Assembly: GCA_026003195.1 (NCBI GenBank)
Contig: BPGU01000001.1
Coordinates: 853,398 to 917,397 of the forward strand
Length of the DNA stretch: 64,000 nt
Origin: Armatimonadota bacterium
GTDB taxonomy: Bacteria > Armatimonadota > HRBIN16
Reading direction: 5' to 3'
Below the pieces are notes generated by a model. It ran no database searches, was not told where the DNA came from, and worked only from the letters and a program-made list of their open reading frames with translations. Shown in pieces: positions 53,234-56,741 of this stretch. A program made the translations under genes and the position numbers. The first letter of the stretch is position 1. The number at the start of each line of letters is the position of its first letter.

Positions 53234-53262
53234 TTGCCTGTTTGCTCGTTTTTGCCTATAAT
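53234..53262 (+). promoter_or_regulatory. Promoter of the DnaA-N-like gene and kinase operon
   Basis: TTGCCT at 53234-53239 and a perfect TATAAT at 53257-53262, with a 17-base spacer. The start is expected near 53269, giving a leader of about 30 bases with AAGGAG before ATG 53299. Confidence 0.8.
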
Positions 53263-53298
53263 GTACCTGTCAGCGTTAGCAGGTAAGGAGAACAGAGA

Positions 53299-53925
53299 AT
53301 GGCTTTGTCTGCACGGGAGATATGGGCACAGGGTGTAGACCGCATGAAGGATAAGATTGTGCTGCCCAGTATGTGGGAAGCACTTGACCATGCGGTGCCG
53401 ATTACCATAGAGAATGGCGAGTTTGTGGTGGGTTTGCCTTCACAACGATACAGCCTGTCGGGACATCTGCGTAACCCCGGCTATCGCCGCACGATCGAGA
53501 TTATCCTCTCGGAGTTGGCGGGCGAAGAGGTGCAGTTGCGCATTATCGAGGGCACCACGCTTGCCGATTGGGAGCGTACCAAACAGCGCGAAGCGCTTGC
53601 TGCTGTCAGCAGGGAGCAGGAGTACGCCCAGCGACGCAAGCAAGAAGAAGTGGAGCAGTCGTGGGATGCCCTGTACGACCGTATCGTGCGCGCCTACTCG
53701 GAACAGCCATATCGCCAGCTCCCACAGGGAAAGGCGGCTTACCTGCAGAAGGCTTTGCAGATGGTGAGCGAGGCGATGGATGATCTGTATCCACAGGGCA
53801 GTGATGTGGACGACCTCACGGAACGCAATCTCGCCCGAGTGATTGACCGCATCGCCAACAACATCGGTGCACCGCCTGCACTGGTGGCGTACGAGCTGTT
53901 TCGGCTACGTGGTTCCGGGAGCTGA
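53299..53925 (+). CDS. Protein with a DnaA N-terminal-domain-like fold
   Basis: A 208-residue protein. Residues 5-95 follow the DnaA domain-I pattern: AREIWAQGVDRMKDKIVLPS, then a loop, PITIENGEFVVGLPSQR, an RRTIEIILSELAGEEVQLRI helix-strand and a closing strand. Residues 95-140 are charged coiled helix (TKQREALAAVSREQEYAQRR); the remaining 70 are helical without a known domain. There is no AAA+ ATPase or DNA-binding domain, so it is not an initiator. Domain I of DnaA binds partners such as DnaB; a regulatory or adaptor role is possible. It is first in an operon with a PfkB kinase. Confidence 0.68.
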   Translation: MALSAREIWAQGVDRMKDKIVLPSMWEALDHAVPITIENGEFVVGLPSQRYSLSGHLRNPGYRRTIEIILSELAGEEVQLRIIEGTTLADWERTKQREALAAVSREQEYAQRRKQEEVEQSWDALYDRIVRAYSEQPYRQLPQGKAAYLQKALQMVSEAMDDLYPQGSDVDDLTERNLARVIDRIANNIGAPPALVAYELFRLRGSGS

Positions 53926-53927
53926 CG

Positions 53928-54845
53928 TTGTCTGACATGCGCTATGACGTTTGCGTATACGGTACCGTCTGTGTAGACCGCATCCGTCGTGTGCAGAGTC
54001 TGCCGCCTCCCGGAGGGTATGTGGAAGTGCTGGAGGAGCGGTGGATGCCTGGTGGCGAGGCACTGAACACCGCCGTTGCACTGGCCACGTGGAACGTGCT
54101 GGTCGCCCTCGTCCCTAACGCGCTGGGGGAAGATGAACTGGCAGAGCATTTGTGGAACATGCTGACAGCGTATCCCTCGTTAGATTTGCGCTTCCTGCGC
54201 CGGCGTCGGGATGTGCGGACGCCCACCTGTGATGTGTATGTCACTCCTGACGGACATCGCACCATGTTCGGCATGGGGTTCGCGCACATGTCCACCGATA
54301 TCGTTCCCGACCCCGCCTTGCAGGGCGTGAAGGCTTTTACCGCCGACGCCAACCCGGGTGAGGCGTCGGTACGTGCTTGCGAGCAGGCAGCTGATGCTGG
54401 AGTGCCGGTTGTCGCGATGGATTTACACGATTCAGAGCGGGCGGGAAGAGTGGCGGACATCTTGCTGACCTCTTACGAGTGGGTAGGTCATGATGATGAT
54501 GTGGATGTGCTGAAGCGTATCGCGTCGCAATATCGCGAGCGATATGGTTGTACGGTCATCCTGACTGCGGGGGCGAAAGGATGTGTGCTGGCGGAGCGCG
54601 AACGTCAAGGGGTGGAGCATATCCCGGCATACCGTGCACCGGCTATCGTGGACACCACCGGGTCGGGAGATGTGTTTCGGGCCGGGTTGATTTACGGGCG
54701 TTACGTGCTGGAGCGTGAAATAACGTGGGCGATACGCTTTGGTTCGGCAGCGGCGGCACTGAACGCCGGAGCGATGGGAGCGTGTGCGGGGGTGCGTCCA
54801 GTAGGGGAGATAGAGCAGTTCATGAACACGCAGCACTCAGTGTGA
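53928..54845 (+). CDS. PfkB/ribokinase-family sugar kinase
   Basis: A 305-residue kinase: GGYVEVLEERWMPGGEALNT near residue 28 (first PfkB signature, Gly-Gly) and APAIVDTTGSGDVFRAGLIY near 240 (second signature, with the catalytic Asp in GSGD). A mid-protein VILTAGAKGCVL holds the ATP-site strand. TTG 53928 starts two bases after the upstream stop; ATG 53937 is the alternative start. It phosphorylates a sugar or nucleoside; with the isomerase gene 12 bases downstream a sugar pathway is likely. Confidence 0.88.
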   Translation: MSDMRYDVCVYGTVCVDRIRRVQSLPPPGGYVEVLEERWMPGGEALNTAVALATWNVLVALVPNALGEDELAEHLWNMLTAYPSLDLRFLRRRRDVRTPTCDVYVTPDGHRTMFGMGFAHMSTDIVPDPALQGVKAFTADANPGEASVRACEQAADAGVPVVAMDLHDSERAGRVADILLTSYEWVGHDDDVDVLKRIASQYRERYGCTVILTAGAKGCVLAERERQGVEHIPAYRAPAIVDTTGSGDVFRAGLIYGRYVLEREITWAIRFGSAAAALNAGAMGACAGVRPVGEIEQFMNTQHSV

Positions 54846-54857
54846 AGGAGGTGTACG

Positions 54858-55697
54858 GTGAAACTCTGTCTGAACCCAACCATAGGTGGTTACGGCAACA
54901 TCCATGAGTTCGTGGCACGGGCGAAACGTCATGGCTATCAGGCGGTGGAGTTCAATGTAGAAGAAATCGCAGGCATTATCCAGCAGCAGGGCGTGAACGC
55001 AGCGCGGGCGATATTCGAGGAATCGGGCATCGAGCCCGTTTGCTTCGGCTTGCCGGTGGAATGGCGCAAAGACCACGAGACGCTGAAAGAGGGGTTACGC
55101 GAACTACCGCGGCTGGCGCGTGCAGCGCAGGCAATCGGTTGTACCCGAACGGCGACCTGGCTACCTCCAAGTATCGACGAGTTTCCTGCGGCGTACTCCG
55201 TGCGTATGGCGGAACGCTTCCGCGAAATCGCGCGCGTGCTGGCAGATTTTAATGTGCGCCTGGGGTTGGAGTGGGTCGGACCAGCGACCGCTCGCACCCG
55301 CAAATATGACTGGATACACACCATGCATCAGCTGCTGGACTTTGAAGCGGAAATTGGCGCCCCCAATCTGGGATTGCTGGTGGACAGCTTTCACTGGTTC
55401 TGCATGGAAGGCACGGTGGAAGACCTGGAAAGATTAACGAACCAGCAGATGGTGCATGTGCATCTCAACGATGCGCCCAACAAGCCGCCGAAAGAGCAGA
55501 TAGACTTCCAGCGTCTGTTGCCGGGTGAGGGAGTGATTGACCTCGCGGGATTCCTGCGCGCACTGAAGAAGGTCGGCTATGATGGAGGCATTGCCATTGA
55601 GGTGTTCAACGAGGAACTCCAGGCGATGGCTCCCGACGACGCAGTGGCGAAGGCGAAGCAGGCATATGATAATGTATGGCGTCAGGCATTTGGTTGA
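54858..55697 (+). CDS. Sugar phosphate isomerase/epimerase (xylose-isomerase-like TIM barrel)
   Basis: A 279-residue TIM-barrel protein of the AP-endonuclease-2/xylose isomerase superfamily: KLCLNPTIGGYGNIHEFVAR at the start, ATWLPPSIDE near 105, VRLGLEWVGP (metal Glu) near 135, NLGLLVDSFHWFCME (Asp, His) near 175, MVHVHLNDAPNKPP (His, Asp) near 204 and GGIAIEVFNEELQ (final Glu) near 251. GTG 54858 has AAGGAGGTG upstream. With the kinase upstream it probably channels one sugar. Confidence 0.9.
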   Translation: MKLCLNPTIGGYGNIHEFVARAKRHGYQAVEFNVEEIAGIIQQQGVNAARAIFEESGIEPVCFGLPVEWRKDHETLKEGLRELPRLARAAQAIGCTRTATWLPPSIDEFPAAYSVRMAERFREIARVLADFNVRLGLEWVGPATARTRKYDWIHTMHQLLDFEAEIGAPNLGLLVDSFHWFCMEGTVEDLERLTNQQMVHVHLNDAPNKPPKEQIDFQRLLPGEGVIDLAGFLRALKKVGYDGGIAIEVFNEELQAMAPDDAVAKAKQAYDNVWRQAFG

Positions 55698-55699
55698 TC

Positions 55700-55774
55700 T
55701 GGTGGGCCCGGCAGGACTCGAACCTGCAACCAACCAGTTATGAGCCGGCCGCTCTGCCTTTGAGCTACGGGCCC
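55700..55774 (-). tRNA. tRNA with anticodon CAT (elongator Met or Ile2)
   Basis: A complete minus-strand cloverleaf of 72 nt plus an encoded CCA (55700-55702). The acceptor GGGCCCG pairs with CGGGCCC (7 bp), the D-stem GCTC/GAGC has a 7-base loop containing GG, the anticodon stem GCCGG/CTGGT encloses CTCATAA with anticodon CAT, the variable loop is TGGTT, and T-arm GCAGG/CCTGC encloses TTCGAGT. The discriminator is A. The paired G1-C72 and the absence of three GC pairs in the anticodon stem argue against the initiator. Met or lysidine-modified Ile cannot be decided from sequence alone. Confidence 0.95.
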
Positions 55775-56000: not shown

Positions 56001-56741
56001 ATGCAGAAGCGCGTTCCTCGATGGCTCGTGCTGATGGTGGCTGGAGTGGTGGCATTCACCATCTCCGCCAGCGCAACCACCAACGTCATCGGCTCAGCGG
56101 GTGCGGGCTGGCAGGCGTGGTCTGCGCCCGATCAAGACGGCAATCCCTACTGGGATAACGTGTCGCAGGACGGCAACAAGAAGAATATCGGTTACTTCCT
56201 GAGCAAGACCGGTGGCTTCAGCAGCCATCCTGCCAGCCCGAACATCACGCCGCCCTGGTGGGGCTATGGCGACGGCAGCGCGGACCTGAACTTCCATTTC
56301 AACAGCAGCCTGTCGCAGGCGGTGAAACTGGTTATCGAAGTGGCGGGTCTGGCGAACGTCAACGAGCTGGGCTGGTACGACGTGAGCAATCCATCCGTCG
56401 GTGGGGTGATCTTCCCGGGTCCGGCAGGAGCAGGCTCCACTACCGTCTTTACCCCGACGCCCAACTTCGGTCTATACATCAAGACCTCGGGCGGGGTGAA
56501 GTATTACACGCAGTCCAGCCTGAATCCGCTCGCTGAGCAAAATCACCAGCATTTCGCGCTCTTCAAAGAGGCGCCCGGTGTCTACTGGGTAGGCATCGAA
56601 GACAAGCCCAAGAACACCGGTGAGGGCTTCGGCGGCGACTACAACGATATGGTGATTCGCATGGCGGTCGTACCCGAGCCTGCTACGATGAGCCTGTTTG
56701 CACTCGGTTTGCTTCCCTTGCTGCGGCGGCGCAAGGCGTAG
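56001..56741 (+). CDS. PEP-CTERM exported protein
   Basis: A 246-residue protein with a signal peptide (residues 9-27, LVLMVAGVVAFTISASA) and a C-terminal sorting tail: AVVPEPATMSLFALGLLPLL then Arg-Arg-Arg-Lys-Ala. The mature body of about 190 residues has DUF4114-like elements (QHFALFKEAPGVYWVGIEDK and GFGGDYNDMVIRM) typical of PEP-CTERM surface proteins. The tail is the target of an exosortase, not encoded in this window. GAGGAGG lies 13-19 bases before the ATG. A terminator follows. Confidence 0.9.
   Translation: MQKRVPRWLVLMVAGVVAFTISASATTNVIGSAGAGWQAWSAPDQDGNPYWDNVSQDGNKKNIGYFLSKTGGFSSHPASPNITPPWWGYGDGSADLNFHFNSSLSQAVKLVIEVAGLANVNELGWYDVSNPSVGGVIFPGPAGAGSTTVFTPTPNFGLYIKTSGGVKYYTQSSLNPLAEQNHQHFALFKEAPGVYWVGIEDKPKNTGEGFGGDYNDMVIRMAVVPEPATMSLFALGLLPLLRRRKA

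Follow-up and report, generated by a model that had tools for sequence, protein, structure and literature searches.

Most of what is known about the replication factors of bacteria comes from a small number of model phyla. Domain I of DnaA and domain V of DnaX, which belong to one KH-like superfamily, have both been described as partners of DnaB, and the C-terminus of DciA has been described as disordered (PMC9912922). For the DnaA of Escherichia coli, individual residues have been assigned to individual contacts: Trp6 to dimerisation, Glu21 and Phe46 to DnaB, and Trp25 and Trp50, among others, to DiaA (PMC5448010). In the Bacillus subtilis primase DnaG, the C-terminal subdomain of the polymerase domain (RPD) spans residues 368–435, and helicase binding is assigned to a separate domain (PMC5429622), so that the label “DnaB-binding”, which Pfam gives to the family of this subdomain (PF10410), is not evidence of such a function.

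The window analysed here is a stretch of 64,000 nucleotides from the genome of an Armatimonadota bacterium (contig BPGU01000001.1 of assembly GCA_026003195.1), which encodes a protein, P0001, that we compare with these systems (Table 1). The first-pass annotation of this DNA had read its first ~95 residues as the N-terminal domain of DnaA, with neither an ATPase nor a DNA-binding domain behind them. Both parts of that description have held up: about 86 residues are predicted to fold in this manner, their best match in the PDB is a DnaA domain I, and a profile of the family recovers its counterparts beyond chance; no ATPase or helix-turn-helix (HTH) model of Pfam matches P0001, and neither Pfam nor NCBIfam has any model that scores above its cut-off on this protein. 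The protein ends instead in a helical domain, without the AAA+ ATPase and the C-terminal HTH typical of DnaA. Because the characterised bacterial branches of this fold (DnaA domain I, tau domain V and DciA) have their roles at initiation or at the replication fork, we propose that the P0001 family may be an accessory replication protein of Armatimonadota, that is, an adaptor of either the replisome or the initiator. We give this reading a probability of about one half, and regard it as plausible but unproven. As for the expression of the gene, chance alone should produce about 0.9 promoter sites as good as the one listed in Table 1 in the region scanned, yet the block CCTATAATGTAC of its −10 region is kept in 6 of 6 aligned loci of the genus, which supports the earlier claim of an own promoter upstream of P0001.

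Table 1. Features of the P0001 locus (positions refer to the window, except in the last two lines, which refer to other loci)
Feature	Position	Strand	Basis
P0001, two-domain protein of 208 aa, ATG start	53299..53925	+	ORF call
Sigma-70-like promoter, TTGCCT-17-TATAAT	53234..53262	+	Scan, 10/12 positions
Ribosome-binding site, AAGGAG	53285..53290	+	Read from the sequence; AGGAG in 6/6 rows of the genus alignment
P0001 residues 1–86, KH-like domain of the type found in DnaA (domain I) and DnaX (domain V)	53299..53556	+	AlphaFold2 model, PDB matches, HMM, profile comparison
Family motif GTTxxDWExxKxR, residues 85–97, after strand 3	53551..53589	+	Conservation in 116 members; helix 88–97 in the model
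Variable charged linker, residues 98–118	53590..53652	+	Alignments
Conserved helical domain, residues 119–205, resembling the C-terminal subdomain of the DnaG polymerase core	53653..53913	+	Conservation, model, structural match, profile and shuffle tests
PfkB-family sugar kinase (neighbour, outside the conserved system)	53928..54845	+	PF00294, E=1.6e-28
Xylose-isomerase-like TIM barrel protein (neighbour)	54858..55697	+	PF01261, E=2.6e-35
J-domain member of the family, locus L057	7762-8697	-	Locus coordinates
J-domain member of the family, locus L063	6484-7578	+	Locus coordinates

Nearly all of the Armatimonadota genomes sampled carry the gene. A match is present in 233 of 251 genomes of the phylum, one of them (in G014) being probably a DnaA, and in 173 of the 179 good ones (completeness of at least 90%, contamination of at most 5%). 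Exactly one match is listed for 211 of the 233 positive genomes, and a second one for the other 22. In a smaller set of 41 genomes relatives occur in 36, and the 37th match is the DnaA of G014, which P0001 picks up as a query with E=1.6e-4. When genome contigs were scanned with the single protein, five close relatives with 85–94% identity were obtained, from HRbin16, a Chthonomonadia bacterium (taxonomy places Chthonomonadia in Armatimonadota) and three other MAGs. The six good genomes without the family gave no full-length match in a lax repeat search, where the hits of two of them (G124 and G060) were their DnaA proteins. Two genomes of 1.5 Mb from a single genus (G180 and G184), 97% complete, had no hit even in that search, and their lack of the family weighs against the adaptor reading. 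Searches with P0001 as the single query gave no relative from phages, plasmids (tblastn, E≤1) or viral contigs, on which ground a phage or plasmid origin was rejected. A defence role was rejected too: five members had no PADLOC match, and matches to PHROGs fell only on the J domain that one of those five carries. Among the papers that searches of one open-licence library listed, no title or abstract opening revealed such a protein. With this occurrence among good genomes, a sequence that no model of Pfam or NCBIfam recognises above its cut-off and a first domain of the DnaA-I/tau-V type, the family represents a concrete candidate for an as yet unknown replication factor.

In the structure model of full-length P0001, obtained with only six close sequences in the alignment, the N-terminal half lies mostly near or below a pLDDT of 50, and Foldseek gave no match to this model at E≤0.001; an AlphaFold2 model of residues 1–98 was used instead, for which the best pLDDT was 85.3 and the second 80.0, the other three predictions being poor (~38–42). 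It contains helices at residues 5–19 and 23–31, strands at 33–38 and 41–46, helices at 48–58 and 60–74, and a strand at 79–84, so that the first ~86 residues follow the helix-helix-strand-strand-helix-strand order of DnaA domain I. The first nine Foldseek rows against the PDB are all chains of DnaA domain I, DnaX/tau domain V or DciA (E from 7.9e-4 to 0.069), including 7ykm and 8a3v for DciA, and 5fku_E and 2aya for tau; we take chain E of 5fku/5fkv to be the tau subunit of E. coli Pol III, and 2aya is named tau in its own title. A structural alignment with VIA-align gave a Z of 10.4 to domain I of B. subtilis DnaA (4tps_B, 82 residues, 2.6 Å), followed by values of 8.2 for DciA (8a3v_C), 7.9 for Helicobacter pylori DnaA and 6.3 for 2aya, the best row outside the superfamily being RbfA with a Z of 7.6. 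The structure prediction that the first-pass annotation had named as decisive between the KH-like domain I and some other fold has thus come out as the domain I type, and we consider this predicted fold well supported.

The homology of the N-terminal domain is also well supported at the level of sequence profiles. We built an HMM on 29 members and searched with it a set of 30 DnaA N-termini, 29 DnaX C-termini and 735 decoys (338 neighbouring proteins and 397 reversed sequences). Most of the DnaA and DnaX sequences (50 of 59) rank above the first decoy, which has E=0.18; at E<0.001 there are 34 of the 59, the best with 5.8e-12, and none of the 735 decoys. In profile comparisons, hhalign gave 98.2% for DnaA domain I and 97.8% for the DnaX C-terminal domain, with at most 4.6% for windows of DnaG. 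Single members match the NCBIfam models of DnaX (best E 8.7e-10), and at E≤0.1 the DnaX_C model PF20964 recognises 9 of 113 members (best 1.5e-5) and the DnaA_N model PF11638 five of 113 (best 0.0039), with no PF11638 row for P0001 itself at E≤10. Weaker matches were seen to the DnaA_N-like domain of STICHEL (PF23007, one of 113 members, E=0.01) and to the NII domain of PolC (PF11490, two of 113, best E=0.021). The relation to DciA (PF05258) lies in the KH-like fold: PF05258 gives no row for P0001 at E≤10 and none among 29 members at E≤1, and hhalign gives 2.9% with DciA, in a weak test with just three DciA rows where DnaA and DnaX score no better against it (~0.5%).

The N-terminal domain of the P0001 family is a separate branch of the KH-like superfamily that holds DnaA domain I and DnaX domain V, since a tree of 89 domains, made from 30 DnaA, 29 DnaX and 30 family members picked for spread among the 116, shows each of the three groups as monophyletic. 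Support is 0.99 for the family, with all 30 of its members together, 0.94 for DnaA and 0.81 for DnaX; this three-group tree gives no order of sisterhood among them. With DnaA domain I the family shares the fold, the order of secondary structure and an invariant tryptophan of the Trp6 type, and differs in the motif that follows strand 3, in its C-terminal domain and in several contact positions discussed below. With domain V of tau it shares the fold and the profile similarity, and differs in being a stand-alone reading frame with no clamp-loader ATPase attached. The idea of a stand-alone domain I, as put forward in the initial annotation, is therefore right about the fold and needs correction in the rest, as this is a two-domain family, about equally near to the C-terminal domain of DnaX and distinct from both in the tree. 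This type of domain thus exists free of ATPase partners as a lineage of its own.

The genome of P0001 also carries a full DnaA, a separate DnaX, with a C-terminus that scores under the cut-off of PF20964, and a separate DciA. A decayed or truncated DnaA is ruled out by the presence of that full DnaA, by the monophyly of the family among the domains in the tree and by its phylum-wide occurrence. A missing helicase loader, another candidate, was rejected, since 36 of the 41 genomes of the smaller set have a DciA that exceeds the cut-off; DnaA_N is present in 35 of them and DnaX_C in 23. These counts also weigh against an adaptor role, as no known role is plainly vacant.

The residues that mediate the contacts of DnaA bear on the possible partners. 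The equivalent of Trp6 is a tryptophan in all 30 family members, in all 29 DnaX and in 29 of 30 DnaA, the remaining one having a gap. The Phe46 position, which is phenylalanine in 27 of 30 DnaA and 25 of 29 DnaX, is not conserved among the 30 family members (His in eight, Pro in five, Tyr in four, Glu in three, and others). The Trp50 position is occupied by His in 19 of the 30 members and the Trp25 position by Ala in 28. At the position of Glu21, the 30 DnaA proteins of Armatimonadota themselves mostly have Ser (13), Thr (7) or Ala (5), with no Glu listed there either. The face that makes the contacts of DnaA is thus conserved within the family yet unlike that of DnaA and, because the contact residues differ, the comparison predicts a partner or a binding mode other than those of DnaA.

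One reading of the invariant tryptophan, Trp9 in P0001, is that its face pairs with domain I of DnaA, much as Trp6 does in DnaA dimers, and that the protein would tune the assembly of the orisome as a regulator of DnaA. Its invariance in the family and the dimerisation role described for Trp6 (PMC5448010) agree with this idea, which we nevertheless hold to be quite improbable, as the same residue is equally invariant in DnaX and may simply belong to the core of the domain, and as the P0001 gene and dnaA lie on different contigs of the same assembly. In the adaptor reading that we prefer, the N-terminal domain would dock on a replication protein, perhaps through the face of helices 2 and 3.

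The second domain is also conserved. Residues W122, R139, Q143, A146, R176, R180, R184 and A197 are kept in 81–96% of the 116 members, with R131 and the pair P142-Q143 as further conserved positions, and the arginines at i, i+4 and i+8 (R176, R180 and R184) suggest a functional face. Across residues 119–205 the full-length model has block pLDDT values of 72–91. The best structural match of the domain (residues 123–204 of this model) is to residues 368–435 of B. subtilis DnaG (5guj), with a Z of 8.9 and 2.0 Å over 68 residues; two more DnaG chains (Z 6.3 and 5.9) are found among the 50 rows listed, together with several NuoE chains and bundles of the TetR type. According to the notes of the aligner, Z values of this size arise by chance for helical bundles, and the match to DnaG is below the level called secure.

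Profile comparison points in the same direction: hhalign between the helical domain and windows of the DnaG C-terminal subdomain gave 12–27% over 19–25 columns, against at most 3.4% for other windows of DnaG, DnaX and DnaA. None of 300 column shuffles, half of them preserving heptads, reached the score of 20.68, the best heptad-preserving one being 19.95. The alignment places a helix of the domain on the DnaG subdomain at [P/T]xG[K/R], and the register P-Q-G-K / V-E-G-R recurs in two non-significant matches of PF10410 to members (E 1.78 and 2.17), one of these alignments being ungapped and the other having two gap positions placed by hand. If the structural alignment has no gap there, sequence register and structural range would agree within about one residue. 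PF10410 gave no row over 29 members at E≤1, and an HMM of the domain had no match in the set of DnaA, DnaX and neighbouring proteins, the best row being a reversed decoy with E 0.013. A common origin with the C-terminal subdomain of the primase core is thus suggested, not proven; P0001 differs from DnaG in having no zinc, TOPRIM or primase core.

Could both domains have left replication altogether? A fold of the KH-like or DnaA_N-like kind does not guarantee a role in replication, since STICHEL, a plant protein with a DnaA_N-like domain, acts in cell shape, outside that process. A repurposed protein, in which the KH-like and the arginine-rich helical domains now serve another task such as the binding or processing of RNA, is a serious rival, possible if on the whole unlikely. 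It would account for the changed contact residues and for the conserved arginines, and other KH-like proteins, namely RbfA, Era and ribosomal proteins, also score a Z of 6–7.6 against the N-terminal domain. A ribonuclease E/G gene (PF10150) lies directly upstream of the family gene at two loci from two families (L061 and L064), and in three further regions (L053, L054 and L193) its cluster is no more than ~7.5 kb away; direct adjacency is, however, limited to 2 of 50 regions. The GxxG loop is the motif of KH domains that bind RNA, and it is not conserved here, as even the position bin where it is most frequent has it in just 13 of 116 members. Moreover, the profiles tie the N-terminal domain by sequence to DnaA and DnaX, proteins of replication.

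Under the reading as a replication adaptor, the arginine face of the C-terminal domain would serve to bind either nucleic acid or a further partner. A more specific version sees the family as an undescribed core adaptor of the replisome, which would combine a docking domain of the DnaA-I/tau-V type with a helical domain derived from primase, and which in one clade would recruit DnaK through a J domain. We offer this version as a tentative one, and somewhat doubtful; if true, helicase or primase would have, besides DciA, DnaC/I and tau, another type of accessory factor, one that has become fixed in an entire phylum.

An N-terminal J domain with the HPD motif, as in the DnaJ co-chaperones, is present in 9 of the 116 members, from two GTDB families (f19 and f8); it was seen in two members in one comparison and in seven of 20 loci with a long frame in another. 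PF00226 matches the two members that were scanned with E=9.6e-23 and 1.4e-21. P0001 itself is among the 105 members that lack it, and two lie too near the end of their stretch to be judged. As all nine J-fused members form one clade in the tree of the 116 (support 0.989), the fusion most likely arose once. This single clade, better explained by one gain than by repeated loss, and the 105 members without the domain make it very improbable that the family descends from a J-domain co-chaperone that lost its J domain in most lineages, and whose other two domains select clients for DnaK, a reading for which the J-fused proteins themselves would speak. If the family is an adaptor of replication, the J domain gained by this clade would recruit DnaK to the complex in which the adaptor works.

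The first-pass annotation had placed the gene at the head of an operon, with a PfkB kinase two bases downstream followed by an isomerase, and had linked replication to sugar metabolism on these grounds. Both reading frames are indeed there, the kinase with a TTG start two bases past the stop of P0001 and an in-frame ATG nine bases further. Among the ten genomes of the genus searched, eight have the P0001 gene, and the isomerase adjoins it in all eight, which together with the tight spacing at this locus is what the proposed link has in its favour. The kinase adjoins it in five (its own genome, G001, G002, G004 and G005) and not in G003, G008 and G009; beyond the genus, PfkB is found in none of 45 regions from other families and the isomerase in two of 45. 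Synteny thus contradicts the metabolic link, which we find hardly credible, and the sugar-kinase neighbourhood is incidental. A conserved operon was likewise rejected: when all reading frames of at least 80 aa were clustered in 50 regions from 31 GTDB families, several of which end early at contig ends, no neighbour cluster was present in more than eight families. The clusters shared by at least three families include no recurrent replication gene, which speaks against the adaptor reading.

The commonest neighbour in these regions is a gene of the prepilin type (the single copy scanned, at L185, matches PF07963 and PF07596). In six regions from four families (L051, L185, L186, L191, L192 and L194) it is the next gene downstream of the family gene; as members of its cluster are found at other places in the regions too, this adjacency may be due to chance. 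In the window itself, the gene upstream of P0001 (51794-53227, plus strand) encodes a protein with DUF4832 and a domain that resembles beta-galactosidase. The isomerase gene is followed immediately by a convergent tRNA-Met gene (cat; 55700-55774, minus strand), and the reading frame at 56001-56741 (plus strand) ends in a PEP-CTERM sorting motif (PF07589, 22.3 bits with a cut-off of 20.7).
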